In this document: piece after piece, positions 2,602 to 10,758 of the stretch
Layout of the letters: each line of letters opens with the position of its first letter
Position numbering within the stretch: position 1 is the first letter of the stretch
Assembly (NCBI RefSeq): GCF_000744255.1
Contig: NZ_JQLO01000001.1
Coordinates: 2,294,001-2,358,000 of the forward strand
Length of the DNA stretch: 64,000 nucleotides
From: Carnobacterium divergens DSM 20623
Lineage (GTDB): Bacteria > Bacillota > Bacilli > Lactobacillales > Carnobacteriaceae
Reading direction: 5' to 3'
Notes under the pieces: model-generated
The model's database searches: none
What the model saw: only the letters and a program-made list of their open reading frames with translations
What the model was told of the DNA's origin: nothing
Made by a program: the position numbers and the translations under genes

Positions 2602-3357
2602 CTAAGCTTCTAAATAAAGTGATCTTAATTGACTCACTTTTTCTTTATCGAAGTCTAAAGCTTGTTCAGCATAATTTAGAACCGTTTCATACTGATCTTT
2701 AATTAAGGAAAAAGCATAATCTAAATATGCTGGTTTTACATACAAAGCTGTTGACAAAGCAGCTATTTCTTCCTCATCCATTCCCTTATCTCTAAAGGTA
2801 TCCAATAACTGATCGTTGGCTTGTTTTCTTTCTGTATTTGTTAGTAAAAAATCGTTCATAATCTCCTCTTCTGGAACTCCTAGCAAAGCTAAAATTAAAG
2901 CTGCTGCGTAACCAGTACGATCTTTTCCTGCAAAACAATGAAATACGGTAGAACCTGTTTTGTTCGCAACAATAATTTCCATAAATTCTTTAAATCCCTC
3001 TTGCGCCCCTGGGTTTAAAATCAAATCTGTATAAACTTCTTTCATATGATTATCTACTGCATCAATTGATTTTAATCGAGCAAAATCTTCTAGGGATGAA
3101 TTTTTAGCACCCATTTTCCCTAAAATATCAAGATTAATGTAAGCTGCTTTTGGAATTTTTGTATCTGGAGACTGCTGAATTTCAAATTCTCTTCTAAAAT
3201 CAACAATTGTTGCCAGCTTATAATCATTTATCAGCTCATTGACTGTTTGACTGCTTAAATTTGATAAATCACCTGAACGCAAAAGTTTACGATGTTTGAT
3301 TGTTTTTCCATCTTCTGTTTTTAATCCACCTAAATCTCTAAAATTTGTAACTTCCAT
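2602..3357 (-). CDS. Tyrosine-phosphatase-like protein (Y_phosphatase3 type), partner of an organophosphate carrier
   Basis: 251-residue enzyme of the bacterial dual-specificity/LipA-like phosphatase group. The catalytic P-loop is visible as HCFAGKDRTGY with Cys141 and Arg147 (HCX5R). The family N-terminal signature NFRDLGGL is at residues 5-12, and RSGDLSNLS follows. There is no signal peptide, so it acts in the cytoplasm. It lies 16 nt after the MFS carrier gene and is almost certainly co-transcribed with it. Family members dephosphorylate phosphotyrosine peptides or phospholipid headgroups. The operon context suggests a small phosphorylated metabolite brought in by the carrier, but that is inference. 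A second, longer paralogue is at 5011-6057. Confidence 0.85.
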   Translation of the reverse strand: MEVTNFRDLGGLKTEDGKTIKHRKLLRSGDLSNLSSQTVNELINDYKLATIVDFRREFEIQQSPDTKIPKAAYINLDILGKMGAKNSSLEDFARLKSIDAVDNHMKEVYTDLILNPGAQEGFKEFMEIIVANKTGSTVFHCFAGKDRTGYAAALILALLGVPEEEIMNDFLLTNTERKQANDQLLDTFRDKGMDEEEIAALSTALYVKPAYLDYAFSLIKDQYETVLNYAEQALDFDKEKVSQLRSLYLEA

Positions 3358-3373
3358 CCTGCTTCACCCTTTC

Positions 3374-4762
3374 TTATACTTCTATTTTAGCTTGTCGAAT
3401 TCGTTTTTCTTCTGCAAATGCAACCGTTCCTAATAATACAATAATAATCACAACAGCGATATAGAAAATAATAAATGTATCACCCCACCCATGAAGAACT
3501 GTATTAAATAACTTCACACCTGCTTGAGTTGGATCTGAAATTTTTGCTAGTAAAATTTTTGCCATTGAATCACCAAACAAATACGCAAATGCTCCTAGCA
3601 ATCCACCTGCGACAACCGTTGCTTTTTTAGGGACAAAACCAAGCATTGAGATATTGATCAATAATTGTGGACCAAAAATCATCATCCCCAACATAAACAA
3701 TGATCCATTAATAATCAATTCAGTCGTCCCAAATTGATAACCAATAATCCCAATCGGTAATAAAAAACTACTGATCGTTGCAACTAATGCTGGACGTCCC
3801 TTTAAGAAATCAGAAATATATCCCCAAGCTAAGCAGCCTACTAGCGCACCCATTTCAAAGTAAAAAATCGTATTCGCTGCTGCTTCATTGCTAAAGTTCA
3901 AGTGTTCCGTGACATACAATGGTGCCCAATTATCAATTCCAATTCTCACGATGTACACAAAAACGTTCGACACACACAATAACCAAATCCAAGGATTCGT
4001 TAAAAGGTATTTTTTGAAAATTTGCCATTTTGTCATATCTTCTGCTTCTTGATTTGCTTCTTCAACAGGCTCTTCAAAGATTTCTTCGCTAGATGCCCAG
4101 CCTAAATCCTCTGGACGGTTTTTTCCAATAAAAAAAGTAATCACAGCAATTACACCCGCAACAACAGCGGGCAAAATAAACATCCCGGCTACATTTCCTT
4201 TAAAGAATGTTTGCGCACACCAGATAGCAAAAATTCCCGCTAAGCCGCCGCCAATATTATGCGATGCATTCCATAAACCAATATATCGTCCTCGATTTTT
4301 CTTAGTCGTCCATTGCGTAATAACAGAAGCACAACTAGGTCCACCAACACATTGAAAGAGACCATTCAATGACCAAAGTACAACAATCCAGCCAAGTGGT
4401 ACATGATTCATCGTAAATAGAAAACCCATACATAAAACAGTTAGAGAAGATAAAAATAAAAGCACAGATAAAATTTTCTTCGTATTCTTTCCATCAACAA
4501 TGTAGCCTAAAATAAACTTACCAAAACCATAGACAATTGAAAAAGTGAAACCAATATAGCCTAAATCAGTAGTAGTAAACCCTAACTGGCTTTTTAATAA
4601 TGGCTGCGCTGCTTTAAAATTATTCCGAATCAAATACATAGTGATATAAATCATCACCACTACAAAAAACGGTTTCATAAATTCTTTAAACCAACGTTTC
4701 CGCTGTTCTGAAATGGTTAATGTACTTTTTGGAACAGGAACATTTTTTAGAAAATCTAACAT
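3374..4762 (-). CDS. Organophosphate:phosphate antiporter-type MFS transporter (UhpC/GlpT-like)
   Basis: 462-residue membrane protein with about 12 transmembrane segments and a central acidic cytoplasmic loop (EEIFEEPVEEANQEAED). The N-terminus, RWFKEFMKPFFVVVMIYITM, and the following YLIRNNFKAAQPLLK carry the conserved arginine-bearing first helix of the OPA family, which exchanges hexose phosphates or glycerol-3-phosphate for phosphate. The start is the ATG at 4762 with AAGGA 7 nt upstream; a TTG one codon earlier is possible. It forms an operon with the phosphatase downstream and is driven by a promoter overlapped by a cre site. The substrate is not evident from sequence. Confidence 0.85.
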   Translation of the reverse strand: MLDFLKNVPVPKSTLTISEQRKRWFKEFMKPFFVVVMIYITMYLIRNNFKAAQPLLKSQLGFTTTDLGYIGFTFSIVYGFGKFILGYIVDGKNTKKILSVLLFLSSLTVLCMGFLFTMNHVPLGWIVVLWSLNGLFQCVGGPSCASVITQWTTKKNRGRYIGLWNASHNIGGGLAGIFAIWCAQTFFKGNVAGMFILPAVVAGVIAVITFFIGKNRPEDLGWASSEEIFEEPVEEANQEAEDMTKWQIFKKYLLTNPWIWLLCVSNVFVYIVRIGIDNWAPLYVTEHLNFSNEAAANTIFYFEMGALVGCLAWGYISDFLKGRPALVATISSFLLPIGIIGYQFGTTELIINGSLFMLGMMIFGPQLLINISMLGFVPKKATVVAGGLLGAFAYLFGDSMAKILLAKISDPTQAGVKLFNTVLHGWGDTFIIFYIAVVIIIVLLGTVAFAEEKRIRQAKIEV

Positions 4763-4838
4763 CAAGCATCCTTCTTTCTACTTTTTGTATTTTTTCTATC
4801 AGCTGATAAACTCTTAAAGATAACATTTTCTATTTAAT

Positions 4839-4875: not shown

Positions 4876-4954
4876 TGAAATTAATTTCATAAAATAACCA
4901 AATAATTGGGAATTTTTTTTTATACTATATGTGTAATTTTATTTAAAATAACAA

Positions 4955-4997
4955 AAATAAACTACTGAGTTTTTAGATACTCTAGCAGTTTATTTTC
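4955..4997 (-). terminator. Terminator of the sigma-54 PTS operon
   Basis: Strong hairpin with 16-bp arms (4955-4970 and 4982-4997; AAATAAACT.../...AGTTTATTT) followed by a T-rich stretch on the minus strand. It separates the PTS-phosphatase operon from the OPA carrier operon. Confidence 0.8.
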
Positions 4998-5010
4998 TAC
5001 TTGGTTCTTT

Positions 5011-6057
5011 TTAGACTAAATACAAAGACCTTAATGACTTAATTTCCTCTTGCGAAATCTTTAATCCTTCTTGAACAAACTGATCAAAACTTCCATAAAT
5101 TTCTTTAATTGCTTCAAATGTAGCCGCCAAATATTCAGGTTCTGAAGACGTTAATGCCCGTAAATTATCTAATACCTCTTTATCTTCAGTATATTTTTTA
5201 TAAAGTTTCATCCGACTGGCGATATGTTCTTTACGATACTCGTCTGTTAAAAAGAAATCTGTTGCTACATCTTTTTCAGAAACACCCAATAATAATAAAA
5301 TGACAGCAACACCAAATCCAGTTCGGTCTTTTCCACCTTTACAATGTTGTAAAATAGGTGTATTTTCTTCTTTCAAGTGAAGCTGAATCACTTTACGATA
5401 AACGGTTAAAGATTGTGGGGATAAAACAAATTGACGATATTGTTCAATCATATTGGCTTTTAGTTTCTTGATTTTTGCTCGGCCTTCAACTGTTTCTAAC
5501 ATTTCTTTAAATGAATGCTTTTGATGCATTGCAACACTTTTTTCAGAAGTATTTGAGGCAATTGCAGCCATATCCGCATTGGGATCTAAGTGATAAAACG
5601 TAGCTTCTGACCATTCCCTATCAGGATTAGCCTCTCGTTCTGCTTCATTACGGTAATCAATCACGGTTTTAATACCTAATTGGTTTTGAATGTACTCAAG
5701 ATCTTGCGAAGTTAGTTGAGACAAGACATCTGACCGATACAATTTACCAAAAACAACATTTTTCCCATCAGATCCCTGCCAACCTCCATAATCTCGAAAA
5801 TTAACGGTTCCTTCTAAATCAACTAAACCTTCCCGAGTAAAAAATTCTGTTCCATTTTTCAATAATACTCGGAAAAAATAAATTGGAAATTCTGCTTTGA
5901 TTTTAATAAAATCTTGTTTTTCAGCTATTTGTAACACTTTCGTTTCATTATTAGGCTCTGTACCAATCCATAACTGATAAATATCGCTGCTAAAACTCGA
6001 CCAATCAATCGTTAAAATTTTATTTTCGCGTGTTACAATTAATTTTGGATAGTTCAA
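5011..6057 (-). CDS. Tyrosine-phosphatase-like protein with N-terminal extension, last gene of the PTS operon
   Basis: 348-residue cytoplasmic phosphatase of the same family as the protein at 2602. Residues 1 to about 80 form an extra beta-rich domain, possibly Ig-like, absent from the shorter paralogue. The phosphatase domain starts at GTVNFRDYGGW (about 83-93), has YRSDVLSQLTSQDL, and carries the P-loop HCKGGKDRTGF with Cys239 and Arg245. It begins 18 nt after the EIIC gene and ends at a terminator, so it belongs to the sigma-54-driven PTS transcript. PTS operons of this type normally end in a phospho-glycosidase, which is missing here. The phosphatase may process the imported sugar phosphate, though it could instead be regulatory. 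Confidence 0.85.
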   Translation of the reverse strand: MNYPKLIVTRENKILTIDWSSFSSDIYQLWIGTEPNNETKVLQIAEKQDFIKIKAEFPIYFFRVLLKNGTEFFTREGLVDLEGTVNFRDYGGWQGSDGKNVVFGKLYRSDVLSQLTSQDLEYIQNQLGIKTVIDYRNEAEREANPDREWSEATFYHLDPNADMAAIASNTSEKSVAMHQKHSFKEMLETVEGRAKIKKLKANMIEQYRQFVLSPQSLTVYRKVIQLHLKEENTPILQHCKGGKDRTGFGVAVILLLLGVSEKDVATDFFLTDEYRKEHIASRMKLYKKYTEDKEVLDNLRALTSSEPEYLAATFEAIKEIYGSFDQFVQEGLKISQEEIKSLRSLYLV

Positions 6058-6075
6058 AAAATCCCTCCTAACTTC

Positions 6076-7338
6076 CTATGACTCTTTTTCAAAAACTGCC
6101 TCTGCTTTTACTTTATTTGTATCTAGCATACCGACAAATGGTAGATAAATAAGAATGGATACCACCAATAAAACGACATTTAGCACAACTAACTGCCAAC
6201 CACCCATAAAGATTCCTTTGACAATCTCAGGCATACCTGTTGGCACCATAACGCCGTTTAAACGAGGCACCCAGCCCGCTGCAATAGCAAAATAAGAAAT
6301 CACGATATTCACCATCGGAGCACCAATCATCGGAACTAAGATATACGGGTTTAAAATCATTGGAACACCAAATTTCAGTGGCTCACTAATTCCAAAAACA
6401 GCTGGCAATAACCCTAAACGTCCGACTGTTTTTAACTGGGTACTTTTGGTTTTAAAGGCTAATAAAATGGCAAAGGCTAAATTGTGTGCGCCTTTTTGTT
6501 GCATGATAAAAGACATTGTCACAATATACGGTAACGGTGAGCCTGCATTAAATGCGTTTAAATTGGCTAAATCTAATGGATAATAAACCGCATATAAAAT
6601 AGCCATTGTCGCCATTGAACCGTGAATTCCCAAAAACCATAAAAATTGCATTAAGAAAACTAAAACCAATGCTGCTGGTAAATTCGCGCCTAGTTTTTGC
6701 AATGGACCTTGAATCAATTGAATAATCAAGTCATGGGCATTTCCATAGGCAGTCAGTGCCACTAATTGACTGATCACTACAAAAATAACTGCAATGACAA
6801 TACCTGGAATCAAACTATTAAAAGAATTGCTAACTGTTGGAGGAACGCTTTCAGGAAGCTTGATTTCCCATTTCTGGTCTAAAATTAATACGTAAATACG
6901 ACTTGCAATTAAACTTACAATAATGGCAACAAATAATCCTTGTGAACCTAGATACTGCATGTTTAATGTTTGAATTTTCTCATCAAATATCGTAATCGGT
7001 GTTACAACAAAGAAGGCCATTAAACTCAGAATCCCCCCCATTGCACCATCTTTATCAAATGAATCTGCTAATTTATACCCTATCATATAAGCCGCATAAA
7101 TCGCAATCAGACCCGTTGTAATTCCATATGGAATATTAATCGCCTTTGCAATCCCCGTTGACGTAATGAAGCTTTGATAGCCTTTTATCGGCAGTGCATA
7201 TAACAACGAAGACATCGCGCCAACAATCATTAATGGAAATAATGTCATCAAACCATCAGACAGGGCTTGAATGTACCGATTACTGGTGAATTTCCCCATC
7301 ACTACTTGCATGTTTTCTTGTATTTTAGCCCATTTCAT
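6076..7338 (-). CDS. PTS EIIC component, lactose/cellobiose family
   Basis: 420-residue integral membrane permease of the Lac/cellobiose EIIC family with about ten transmembrane segments. It begins MKWAKIQENMQVVMGKFTSN and has the conserved substrate-site region GIHGSMATMAIL and the GISEPLKFGVP motif, whose glutamate takes part in sugar phosphorylation. The gene follows EIIA with a 3-nt gap and precedes a phosphatase. The sugar cannot be read from the sequence; the family handles beta-glucosides, cellobiose, lactose and chitobiose. Confidence 0.9.
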   Translation of the reverse strand: MKWAKIQENMQVVMGKFTSNRYIQALSDGLMTLFPLMIVGAMSSLLYALPIKGYQSFITSTGIAKAINIPYGITTGLIAIYAAYMIGYKLADSFDKDGAMGGILSLMAFFVVTPITIFDEKIQTLNMQYLGSQGLFVAIIVSLIASRIYVLILDQKWEIKLPESVPPTVSNSFNSLIPGIVIAVIFVVISQLVALTAYGNAHDLIIQLIQGPLQKLGANLPAALVLVFLMQFLWFLGIHGSMATMAILYAVYYPLDLANLNAFNAGSPLPYIVTMSFIMQQKGAHNLAFAILLAFKTKSTQLKTVGRLGLLPAVFGISEPLKFGVPMILNPYILVPMIGAPMVNIVISYFAIAAGWVPRLNGVMVPTGMPEIVKGIFMGGWQLVVLNVVLLVVSILIYLPFVGMLDTNKVKAEAVFEKES

Positions 7339-7341
7339 TTT

Positions 7342-7653
7342 TTAATTCCCCCTCATCTTGTCATATAACCCAACAAATTTATCTGCTAAATCACGAACCG
7401 TCATGGCGTTCATTAAATGGTCTTGCCCGTGAATCAAAAGCAATGTCACTTCGACCCTTTCGCCACTAGCTTCTTTTGTAAGTAACGCTGTTTGACCGTT
7501 ATGGGCCTCATTTAATTTTTCATTGGCTTCTTCTAATTTTGCTTTTGCTTCTTGAATTTCACCTGATTGAGCTATGTCAATTGCTTCCATCGCTAAACTT
7601 CTTGCATTTCCTGCCCCTACAATAATCTGCATCACTGCCTGCTCTAAATTCAT
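7342..7653 (-). CDS. PTS EIIA component, lactose/cellobiose family
   Basis: 103-residue all-helical phosphocarrier. The phosphorylated histidine lies in LLLIHGQDHLMNAMTVRDLA, the signature of the LacA/CelC family. It accepts phosphate from HPr and passes it to the EIIB encoded 14 nt upstream. It is the second gene of the EIIB-EIIA-EIIC-phosphatase operon. Confidence 0.92.
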   Translation of the reverse strand: MNLEQAVMQIIVGAGNARSLAMEAIDIAQSGEIQEAKAKLEEANEKLNEAHNGQTALLTKEASGERVEVTLLLIHGQDHLMNAMTVRDLADKFVGLYDKMRGN

Positions 7654-7667
7654 CGTATCTCTCCTTT

Positions 7668-7985
7668 TTATTTTCTGACTAAATGAATTGCTTCGTTTAA
7701 TATTTTTTCACCATTTATCATGCCGTAATCGACACTATTAATAACAACGATTGGAAAACCTTTATCTGCGTACTGTTCTTCGATCTTCTTCTTCATATAC
7801 ATTACTTGCGGGCCTAGTAATAAAATATCCGTTTCATCTGCTAATTTTTTAAACTTGCTTTCTGCTGAAGCCACGATACGAATCGTATCATTAGGATAAA
7901 ATTGGGTAGCCGCTTTTTGCATTTTTTGAACTAAAATACTTGTAGACATTCCACCTGCACATACAAGCGTTATTTTGATTTCCAT
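7668..7985 (-). CDS. PTS EIIB component, lactose/cellobiose family
   Basis: 105-residue phosphocarrier with the active-site cysteine in LVCAGGMSTSILVQKM (Cys10), typical of Lac-family EIIB. It is the first gene of the operon; GGGGAG lies just upstream of the ATG at 7985. Transcription should begin about 30 nt upstream, from the sigma-54 promoter at 8024-8039. Confidence 0.93.
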   Translation of the reverse strand: MEIKITLVCAGGMSTSILVQKMQKAATQFYPNDTIRIVASAESKFKKLADETDILLLGPQVMYMKKKIEEQYADKGFPIVVINSVDYGMINGEKILNEAIHLVRK

Positions 7986-8023
7986 CTTTATTCTCCCCTT
8001 TTTTGGTTGATACTAACTACTAT

Positions 8024-8039
8024 TGCAAAAAACGTGCCA
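8024..8039 (-). promoter_or_regulatory. Sigma-54 (RpoN) -24/-12 promoter of the PTS-phosphatase operon
   Basis: On the minus strand TGGCAC-N5-TTGCA (8039 down to 8024) matches the sigma-54 consensus TGGCACN5TTGCW at every defined base. Exactly 10 nt separate the invariant GG and GC. The adjacent gene encodes a sigma-54 activator with a GAFTGA-type loop, which makes the assignment very likely. Confidence 0.93.
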
Positions 8040-8096
8040 AGACACATTAAAAAGCACACAGCTCTGTTATTAGCCATGTGCTTTTGGATGTGTCTT
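8039..8096. promoter_or_regulatory. Large dyad upstream of the sigma-54 promoter (activator site and/or terminator)
   Basis: Two 20-bp arms (8039-8058 and 8077-8096) are complementary at 18 of 20 positions, with an 18-nt centre. The dyad starts inside the stop region of the activator gene and abuts the -24 box. It could terminate the activator transcript (a T6 run follows 7 nt later), serve as the enhancer-like binding site of the activator, or do both. Confidence 0.7.
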
Positions 8097-10758
8097 AATG
8101 TGTATTGATAAAAAATGAAACCATGTAACACACTTCATCTTCACTGATGTTGATCTGATATTTGTATTCAATACTTCTTAATGCTTCTTGAATTAATTGA
8201 ATTTCATCTGCATGTTTCCTCATGAAAAATTCTTTATCTAAAAATTCTGTCCCTTTTTCGCCACCAAACTCTCGATCAATCATACACGCTAAATGAAAAG
8301 CAAATCCAATCAACACATTTAAATTTGATTCGATCGAAAATTGAATTGTTAGAGCTGTAATCAGTTTCTTTACATCCACCACAACTTCCTCTGAATCAAC
8401 ATACTTCAACTGTCCAGCTAGCGTCTTTCCTAATTTCCCATAGGTTTCTGCCAAATCAACTAATTGCTGAATCTCCTGGATTTTAGATTTTTCAATCACC
8501 TCTACTAAATCAAAATGAGGGTATTGAAAAGCTAAATGAAAAGGACTCACTATACAGATAATTTCATAAGTTTTGGACAAACTGGCTAGTCTTGCATAAA
8601 TATCTTCCTTATCAATTAAATTGATTGCAATAATCTCAAGTACCTCTTCATCAAAATTCAATTCTGTTGTTAGTATATTTTTTAAGACTTTTGCCGTTCC
8701 TTCACCCGTTGTACAAATCGTTACGATAGCAAATTTGATTGAATTTTTTTTACTATGCTCTTGAAGTTCCTCTTCAATCAAAAGATTAACGGCTAGGGTT
8801 TCCTTATAGACAGCTTGCAAGGGATAGCCCAACATGGCTTTTCGGACTGCTTCTAAAACATGTAAAGTGGACACCAATTGAATCGTTTGAGTGTCTATCC
8901 CAAAGGTCTTACTAATCTCATTTCCAAAAGTATTTAACGATCCCATATCCACCATAAATAAAATAGGCGCCTTGATTTGATGCGTTTGAATATACGCTTT
9001 AATTCGAAGAAGCGAGTCTTGTGGTTTTTCAGATAGAGGTACGTCAAATCCAATCCCGTATTCTTCACCTAATAATTGATTGACTGTATTCACAATAGAG
9101 GTTGCTGTCGACTCTCCGTGAGTGACTACAAAAACGTGTACTACTTCTTGAACTTGCTTTTTTGTATGGTTGCCGTACACAAAAAATAGCGTTAGATAAT
9201 TGGCTTCACTGATTGGCAATTCAATTTCAAATTCTTGATTGAATAACCGAATACAGTCATAAGAAACTTGGTATTCTCGCGGATGACTTTCTTCTGTATT
9301 TTCAAACAACTGATTTTCATAATAATGATTCTTTTTAACACGCGACACTGCCTTTTCAAGATGTAGTGCCAATCCATAAAAAACGCGATTGCCAAATACC
9401 GTCTCCAACTGACTTTCCGCATATTGAATCATTCGTTCTACACTCGAAATAATACGTTGATCTACTAAATTTTCAATATAGCGTTGATTCGAATCCTTCT
9501 TTACTTGATTCATATACTCTTCAAAATGTAAATGAATCTCCTTATTTAAATTCTCTTCTAATTCTTTTCCGCTAATCCCTAAGTGGGTTAATTCAACTTT
9601 TTTATGATCAATCAATTCATAAATATCTTGTTGATCAATCGGTTCTTCTAAATAGTGTGTTGCCTCTCCTGAAAATTCAAAATATCGCTGATTAATGCCA
9701 ATAATTTTATTCCAAAGTTTACGATGTTGAACTTCCAACAATAATCCTGCATTTACTTTTTCAGATAAATCCAATGCTGAAATTTGAATCTTTTCTGCAT
9801 GATTGGATAAGTATTCCGCATACGCTTTAGCACAGGCTAATTGAACATCTGATTTTAACTCTCCGATATTATGTCTGCATTCATAACTTAAAAAAGCTCT
9901 TAATGAATTTACAGAAACGGTAATTGGCTCTTTTAGTTTTGCTGATTCTTGATTGATAAAATACTTAATGAGTGCAAATCGTTCTTCTAACTGTCGACTT
10001 TTAAGATTTGGCAATTTAATTACCATGGGCATTCTTCTAACGAAGGTTTCTAATAATGTAGTTGCTGGATTTTCAGTTGTCGCTGCTACAATCATCACCT
10101 GTGAGCTACGTTCATTTTCTGTTTCTCCTAGCCTTCTAAATGTCCCTTTGTCCATAAAAGTAAACAACATCTCTTGACCTTCTGGTGGCAATCGATGAAC
10201 TTCATCTAAAAATAGCACTCCCTGATTTGCCAATTCAATCAAGCCTTTGCGATCATCATTGGCCCCAGTAAAGGCATTTTTTTTCACACCAAATAATTGC
10301 GCTAAAAGCATCTGTGGGTTGTGGCTATAGTCAGCACAATTAAAACTAATTAGCTGCTCATTTTTAGTAAAGCGCTTCATTTCTTTTCCAAATGAAAATA
10401 ACATTTCAGCAAACATTGACTTCCCTGTTCCAGTTTCGCCTAATAGTAAGGTATTCATGCCATTGGGGGGATATAAGACAGCTGCTTTAGCTTGCTCAAT
10501 TGCTTTGGACAATGAGGGATTTTCAATTAAAAATAAGTCGAATCCTCTCTCTTTAGATAGCGTTTTCTTTTCTTCCTTTGGAAAATAATATACTGGTTTT
10601 CCCGACTCTTTACGTGCTTTGCCCATTCTCACGAGTTCATTTAAATCAGAACTTACGTTATTACGACTAAATGACGTTAAACTAGAGACTTCTTTTGTTG
10701 TTAAGCCCTTATTTCCTTGTTTTTTTAGCACCTCATAAATTGTTTGAATTCTTTTCAT
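8095..10758 (-). CDS. Sigma-54-dependent PTS operon activator, LevR/CelR type
   Basis: 887-residue cytoplasmic activator. Order of domains: N-terminal helix-turn-helix (about 1-60); AAA+ ATPase (about 75-330) with Walker A GETGTGKS at 107-114, the sigma-54 contact loop as NAFTGA at 161-166 and Walker B VLFLDE at 181-186; PRD1 (about 430-535); mannose-type EIIA domain (about 541-675) with His548 in THGES; EIIB-like stretch (about 690-775, TICTTGEGT); C-terminal PRD2 (about 790-887). The activity of such proteins is set by phosphorylation from HPr and the cognate EIIB. It is adjacent to and codirectional with the sigma-54 PTS operon, which it presumably controls. rpoN is not in this window. Confidence 0.92.
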   Translation of the reverse strand: MKRIQTIYEVLKKQGNKGLTTKEVSSLTSFSRNNVSSDLNELVRMGKARKESGKPVYYFPKEEKKTLSKERGFDLFLIENPSLSKAIEQAKAAVLYPPNGMNTLLLGETGTGKSMFAEMLFSFGKEMKRFTKNEQLISFNCADYSHNPQMLLAQLFGVKKNAFTGANDDRKGLIELANQGVLFLDEVHRLPPEGQEMLFTFMDKGTFRRLGETENERSSQVMIVAATTENPATTLLETFVRRMPMVIKLPNLKSRQLEERFALIKYFINQESAKLKEPITVSVNSLRAFLSYECRHNIGELKSDVQLACAKAYAEYLSNHAEKIQISALDLSEKVNAGLLLEVQHRKLWNKIIGINQRYFEFSGEATHYLEEPIDQQDIYELIDHKKVELTHLGISGKELEENLNKEIHLHFEEYMNQVKKDSNQRYIENLVDQRIISSVERMIQYAESQLETVFGNRVFYGLALHLEKAVSRVKKNHYYENQLFENTEESHPREYQVSYDCIRLFNQEFEIELPISEANYLTLFFVYGNHTKKQVQEVVHVFVVTHGESTATSIVNTVNQLLGEEYGIGFDVPLSEKPQDSLLRIKAYIQTHQIKAPILFMVDMGSLNTFGNEISKTFGIDTQTIQLVSTLHVLEAVRKAMLGYPLQAVYKETLAVNLLIEEELQEHSKKNSIKFAIVTICTTGEGTAKVLKNILTTELNFDEEVLEIIAINLIDKEDIYARLASLSKTYEIICIVSPFHLAFQYPHFDLVEVIEKSKIQEIQQLVDLAETYGKLGKTLAGQLKYVDSEEVVVDVKKLITALTIQFSIESNLNVLIGFAFHLACMIDREFGGEKGTEFLDKEFFMRKHADEIQLIQEALRSIEYKYQINISEDEVCYMVSFFINTH

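Follow-up and report, generated by a model that had tools for sequence, protein, structure and literature searches.

The 64,000-nucleotide stretch of the Carnobacterium divergens DSM 20623 genome analysed here (contig NZ_JQLO01000001.1, positions 2,294,001 to 2,358,000; hereafter the window) carries a cluster in which the genes for the enzyme II (EII) components EIIB, EIIA and EIIC of a sugar phosphotransferase system (PTS) are followed by the gene for a phosphatase of the protein tyrosine phosphatase (PTP) superfamily, and this pairing of EII and phosphatase genes recurs within one clade of phosphatases. We consider it probable that the gene product, a putative cysteine-based cytoplasmic phosphatase of the MptpB/ALP family, has been re-specialised for the phospho-sugar released by the neighbouring EII, regardless of whether the freed sugar is then catabolised or leaves the cell again. 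Dephosphorylation of the sugar phosphate after import is thereby a likely, but unproven, mechanism.

The preliminary description of this DNA had left it to a search of other genomes whether the pairing recurs; it does, and with several transporter families. Homologs of the phosphatase were searched in 395 genomes of the order Lactobacillales, where matches with E <= 1e-20 occurred in at least 177 genomes and up to five candidates per genome were scored. A phosphatase was counted as linked when it lay in one gene run with EII genes, with gaps of up to 60 nt. Among the 44 best-scoring homologs (157.8 bits or more, the window's own included), 40 were linked, and locus L126 (142.6 bits) together with a plasmid-borne case from Lactobacillus ultunensis (L159) brings the linked total to 42, distributed over six families of the order. 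In all 42 cases the phosphatase gene directly adjoins an EII gene, from an overlap of 19 nt to a gap of 21 nt; for comparison, of 307 genes of unassigned family located more than six genes away, 3 had an EII gene directly next to them. Four of the best 44 homologs, L080, L092, L100 and L124, were unlinked. Two of these have mannose-type EII genes upstream, the phosphatase gene being broken in L100 and the N-terminal part of the phosphatase missing in L092. At positions 7182-8542 of the latter locus, open reading frames (ORFs) judged by eye to be transposase-like lie between the mannose-type EIID and phosphatase genes.

Linkage goes along with a signature in the active site. We compared 85 PF13350 genes, comprising those of the window, the best homolog rows, hand-picked lower rows, further rows and one plasmid. 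In this set, 46 genes encode the P-loop HC[R/Q/K/H]GGKDR and 42 of them are EII-linked, whereas the remaining 39 encode HC[T/F/S]AGKDR and none lies in a run with EII genes; four of these 39 (the second phosphatase of the window, the second one of L079, L121 and L157) have an EII gene at most five genes off on the same strand, outside the 60-nt run. At P-loop position 2 (residue 240) the clade has R, Q, K or H (22, 17, 4 and 2 rows, respectively) vs. T, F or S in the others (27, 9 and 3), and position 3 (residue 241) is G in 45 of 45 clade rows vs. A in 39 of 39 others. Outside the loop, D110 (45/45 vs. 0/39), P159 (45/45 vs. 2/39) and Y286 (42/45 vs. 0/39) also set the clade apart, while C239, K243, D244 and R245 are invariant throughout the two sets. 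That an ordinary phosphotyrosine or lipid phosphatase happens to lie in a PTS operon by chance is suggested by the retained catalytic residues and by the Pfam family, which is common to MptpB and the Listeria enzymes; given the segregation of linkage with the motif and the spread of linked genomes over six families, we regard this explanation as highly improbable.

A search for the motif irrespective of overall similarity returned 47 places in 36 of the 395 genomes and none with the reversed pattern. Of these places, 45 coincide with genes of the compared set (41 linked ones and the four unlinked homologs named above). The two additions, both fragments, are L170, close to an EIIC gene but outside a run with it, and L171, where an EII gene was not found. 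Among 398 genomes sampled from the phylum, the motif occurred in the window's own genome only, and viral contigs gave no motif match. Phage records matching in the homolog search numbered 12. On plasmids, 155 records match the window enzyme, and the contexts of four were examined: the L. ultunensis plasmid encodes an EII-linked enzyme with HCRGGKDR, and no EII gene was found among the annotated neighbours of the homologs from Latilactobacillus curvatus (HCTAGKDR), Enterococcus faecalis (HCFAGKDR) and Ligilactobacillus salivarius (HCTAGKDR).

The transporters joined to the phosphatase are diverse, with lactose-type EIIABC in 23 of the 42 runs, mannose-type EII in 10, lactose-type EIIC without EIIA or EIIB in the run in 8, and a Glc-type EII in one. 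In two of the eight EIIC-only cases further components lie outside the run, namely EIIA and EIIB at L099, separated by a 144-nt gap, and an EIIA-like ORF at L090, 160 nt downstream. A tree of 84 rows, built by a quick method and containing several long branches, places the GG rows on one side of one branch (SH-aLRT 96). On this tree the run labels (four transporter types and none) require at least nine changes, to which the none label and gaps like the one in L099 contribute, and linked vs. unlinked requires four; the pattern suggests that EII partners were exchanged while the PTS linkage persisted. Besides the phosphatase, 37 of the 42 runs contain only EII and regulator genes; the other five have a gene of glycoside hydrolase family GH1 (L099, L141) or an ORF of other or unassigned family (L087, L113, L118). 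A regulator gene lies at most six genes away in 41 of 42 linked loci, i.e., LevR in 19, RpiR-like in 11, LicR-type in 8 and a 629-residue-type helix-turn-helix (HTH) gene in 5, some loci having two. A relaxed -24/-12 pattern was present beside LevR in 17 of the 19 LevR-linked loci, including the window, and was not found at L089 and L125. In many LevR loci licT, EIIglc and GH1 genes start 148-281 nt downstream and were treated as a separate operon. A frequent neighbour of about 630 residues was considered as a polysaccharide lyase, which was rejected, the scanned cases being a PRD/EIIA regulator, an HTH protein or, in the licT loci, a Glc-type EII.

According to the favoured reading, the partner EII would phosphorylate the sugar on entry and the phosphatase would release the imported sugar from its phosphate via a phospho-cysteine intermediate. 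Once free, the sugar could enter catabolism by a route needing unphosphorylated sugar, or leave the cell again, in which case the EII-phosphatase pair would limit the sugar-phosphate load by inducer expulsion or stress relief. We slightly favour the first fate, since in most runs no enzyme other than the phosphatase was seen. The natural change at P-loop position 2 and the pairing with varied EII types point to a small phosphorylated molecule as substrate, which would most simply be the sugar phosphate made by EII. EIIB is phosphorylated on histidine in mannose-type and on cysteine in lactose-type systems, and since the phospho-residues differ between partner types, the common element would be the sugar phosphate rather than one phosphoprotein. 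Exchange of P-loop position 2 for Lys was made in MptpB, Lmo1800 and LM1; the accessible parts of that study describe an enhanced activity and an altered substrate preference of MptpB and Lmo1800, and a new substrate for MptpB (Beresford et al., PMC3091653). Likewise, in the available portion of the respective report, the related ALP Pho16B was active on 10 of 10 substrates tried, including glucose-6-phosphate (PMC6409689).

Several observations weigh against a role in sugar-phosphate dephosphorylation. The 85 compared genes are no random sample, linkage and motif track one clade, so that the 42 linked cases share ancestry and are not independent, and the clade-specific residues outside the P-loop are defined by alignment columns. 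Furthermore, two intact clade members have no EII gene nearby, namely L124 and L080 (phosphatase at 8206-9303 on the minus strand, HCKGGKDR loop). Outside the genus no relative is closer than the latter (49% identity), which has genes for an X-Pro dipeptidyl-peptidase and an M19 dipeptidase in place of the PTS genes. In addition, the long-form homolog Lmo1935 prefers phosphorylated peptides as substrates, according to the accessible parts of PMC3091653. A Listeria-like locus in our set (L136), which we take from its gene order to encode the Lmo1935 homolog, shows the HCTAGKDR loop and lacks an EII gene as neighbour.

The preference of Lmo1935, together with membership of the PTP superfamily and the presence of a LevR, LicR-type, RpiR-like or 629-residue-type HTH gene near 41 of the 42 linked phosphatases, would also fit a protein phosphatase which resets a phosphorylated PTS component or regulator and thereby tunes transport or induction. 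However, the phosphorylated EIIB residues and the regulator types vary among the loci, which leaves no single local phosphoprotein common to them, an argument that a general protein such as HPr escapes; moreover, phospho-histidine is an unusual substrate for PTPs. Taken together, we judge a protein-directed role to be unlikely.

Further points against the favoured reading, above all its catabolic version, come from three loci at which a GH1 gene lies 3' of the phosphatase gene, i.e., L099 (-1 nt), L115 (78 nt) and L141 (41 nt). We looked there for a true beta-glucosidase, which would act on the free sugar; the encoded proteins carry instead a phospho-beta-glycosidase signature, or what we take to be this motif, which counts against the simplest catabolic model. 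The idea that the phosphatase stands in place of a phospho-glycosidase thus applies to the window and to the majority of linked runs (37 of 42), but not to these three loci. A phosphatase and a phospho-type GH1 enzyme acting on the same phospho-sugar would compete, so that a safety-valve or product-side role suits better there, and exit of the sugar is the fate that fits better wherever a phospho-glycosidase is also present. As a sub-case of sugar-phosphate dephosphorylation, the enzyme could in general be an overflow valve which drains unusable phospho-sugar, by inducer expulsion or in sugar-phosphate stress, rather than starting catabolism. Apart from the coexistence with GH1, the independence of the linkage from the transporter family speaks for it, and inducer expulsion in Gram-positive bacteria involves an intracellular sugar-phosphate phosphatase. 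The fixed clade-specific residues, in contrast, suggest a defined substrate, and as a general role we consider the overflow function possible but rather doubtful.

Returning to dephosphorylation of the imported sugar as the favoured function, its generalization is more tentative. The GG-motif phosphatases might form a new, order-restricted class of sugar-phosphate phosphatases with PTP fold, making PTS importers of at least two families deliver free sugar, and some of their genes could be the missing inducer-expulsion phosphatase genes; this broader proposal appears to us a real possibility, albeit short of probable. Database records name members of the branch "tyrosine-protein phosphatase", and its studied members have been discussed as virulence factors. 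If the reading is true, a branch of the PTP superfamily carrying this name would be metabolic in many bacteria of the order, a short P-loop motif would allow annotation to distinguish PTS-linked sugar phosphatases from phosphatases of proteins or lipids, and PTS operons lacking a phospho-glycosidase would find an explanation. Moreover, the phosphatase step of inducer expulsion would become testable by single-gene deletion.

In the window (Table 1), the genes for EIIB, EIIA, EIIC and the 348-residue HCX5R phosphatase were confirmed to be flanked by a perfect sigma-54 site on one side and a terminator-like hairpin on the other, with the gene for a LevR-type activator adjoining. The gene order is EIIB-EIIA-EIIC-phosphatase with intergenic gaps of 14, 3 and 18 nt, from which we infer co-transcription; the phosphatase gene starts with TTG. 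The region 5011-10758 had been put forward as an operon, which stands for the four genes but not for the regulator gene, as this is located upstream of the promoter and outside the operon. The perfect -24/-12 consensus has two matches in the window vs. 0.05 expected, the other one (46737) being inside an ORF of 155 residues. The LevR-type regulator comprises Sigma54_activat, two PRD stretches and an EIIA-man domain, and rpoN has one match in the genome, so that the promoter, the AAA+/PRD activator and the sigma factor of a sigma-54-dependent LevR-type PTS operon are all present. The EIIC score above the TIGR00410 cut-off and the separate EIIA and EIIB above their Pfam cut-offs identify a lactose/cellobiose PTS. 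As both EIIA (124.6 vs. 136.95) and EIIB (89.7 vs. 110) score under the NCBIfam subfamily cut-offs, no sugar was assigned to this EII. Between promoter and hairpin there is no glycosidase gene, in this respect unlike a phospho-beta-glycosidase operon. None of 200 shuffles folds as well as the hairpin 3' of the phosphatase gene, which is absent from the output of a generic terminator scan. A strong inverted repeat at 8045-8090, located 3' of the LevR gene and ahead of the sigma-54 site, may be a terminator of the LevR transcript or a regulator-binding site.

Table 1. Features of the EII-phosphatase operon and the adjoining regulator gene in the C. divergens window.
Feature	Position	Strand	Basis
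Sigma-54 (-24/-12) promoter TGGCACGTTTTTTGCA	8024..8039	-	Perfect consensus
EIIB, lactose/cellobiose family	7668..7985	-	PF02302, E 5.9e-15
EIIA, lactose/cellobiose family	7342..7653	-	PF02255, E 3.5e-36
EIIC, lactose/cellobiose family	6076..7338	-	PF02378, E 5.6e-43; TIGR00410 lacE, 306.8 bits (cut-off 236)
Phosphatase, PTP superfamily, MptpB/ALP type, P-loop HCKGGKDRTG	5011..6057	-	PF13350, E 4.6e-63
N-terminal all-beta domain of the phosphatase, residues 1-84, probably Ig/FnIII-like	5806..6057	-	AlphaFold
Terminator-like hairpin, then U-rich stretch	4946..5002	-	-18.6 kcal/mol, z -4.79
LevR-type sigma-54 activator with PRDs, separate gene upstream	8095..10758	-	PF00158, PF00874, PF03610

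The PF13350 match covers residues 80-347 of the phosphatase, and the AlphaFold model of the whole protein has a mean pLDDT of 76.6. In VIA-align, the catalytic domain matches the folds of a Clostridioides difficile PTP (8dhi, Z 28) and of M. tuberculosis PtpB (MptpB; 2oz5, Z 25.5), the next entry listed after MptpB having Z 14.8; this fold and the P-loop HCKGGKDRTG, which follows the pattern HCXXGKDR[TA]G, place the enzyme among the ALPs. Residues 1-85, modelled alone from the single sequence with AlphaFold, form an all-beta domain of eight strands (mean pLDDT 78.3). A fold search with this domain gave no match with E <= 0.001, the best weak rows being grass-pollen allergens (expansin-like domains) and FnIII modules, and a profile search of PDB sequences nothing below E 0.5. 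The domain of about 80 residues had been proposed to confer specificity, which was rejected as a general rule: it is also found in non-PTS homologs, e.g., L129, L131, L132, L136, L139 and L140, and is missing in seven of the 42 PTS-linked enzymes (L082, L090, L096, L101, L114, L116 and L159; 261-281 aa). It seems to be an ancient component of the long-form lineage and not the source of PTS specificity.

Elsewhere in the window, at 2602-4765 on the minus strand, the gene for a UhpT-like hexose-phosphate antiporter (NF007107, 662 bits, cut-off 497) is followed after 16 nt by that of the second PF13350 phosphatase (HCFAGKDRTG), so that two such phosphatases lie near two systems through which sugar phosphates enter the cell. 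The combination of UhpT-like and PF13350 genes was otherwise seen, among the loci examined, only at L079, in a genome of the same genus. The C. divergens genome contains two further LevR-type activators besides that of the window. A second LevR-type locus (L166, C1:1457000-1474000) carries two genes for EIIC, three for EIIB and one for EIIA. Of its five sigma-54-like sites, four are on the coding strand, and three of these stand directly upstream of an EII gene; a phosphatase and GH1 were not found at this locus. A phospho-glycosidase gene is present at another locus of the genome, L165, which combines EIIC and GH1.

With regard to known systems, the lptBAC/LpoR system of E. faecalis resembles the window in its -24/-12 promoter, the LevR-type activator in the vicinity and the EIIBAC order; the term phosphatase occurs twice in that article, and in the excerpts shown it concerns HPrK/P and not lptBAC (PMC8262876). 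The ALPs MptpB, Lmo1800 and Lmo1935, as far as presented in the accessible parts of PMC3091653, share the fold, PF13350, the HCXXGKDR[TA]G loop, the catalytic Asp and the substrate-binding Lys with the window enzyme. The clade of the latter, however, has [R/Q/K/H]-G instead of [T/F/S]-A at P-loop positions 2-3, occurs mostly in PTS runs and, in the samples searched, in one order only. Among the matches listed from the open-access literature, no title dealt with a PTS-linked tyrosine-phosphatase-like enzyme, and the subgroup seems to be without a prior tie to a PTS role, this literature search being the sole basis for calling it undescribed.

Import followed by dephosphorylation is itself an established idea, the example being maltose utilization in E. 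faecalis, where Mokhtari in 2013 reportedly described the PTS transporter MalT and the dedicated phosphatase MapP, which dephosphorylates the imported sugar. The maltose catabolic route via MapP needs unphosphorylated sugar. A MapP-like locus is also present in the C. divergens genome (L167, C1:2456000-2470000), where the EIIBC gene (TIGR02003) overlaps an Exo_endo_phos gene by one base; genes for a GH65 enzyme and a beta-phosphoglucomutase are divergent from this pair, followed by genes judged by eye to be epimerase-like and LacI-like. Compared via this locus, the two arrangements differ in the phosphatase, which is of the Exo_endo_phos family there and of PF13350 in the window, as well as in the Glc-type EIIBC and the GH65 gene alongside. 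What they have in common with the reported MalT-MapP system is the pairing of a PTS EII with a dedicated phosphatase, and the EII-phosphatase operon of the window is, by analogy, best read as a PTP-fold counterpart of the MalT-MapP logic which would employ an unrelated enzyme.

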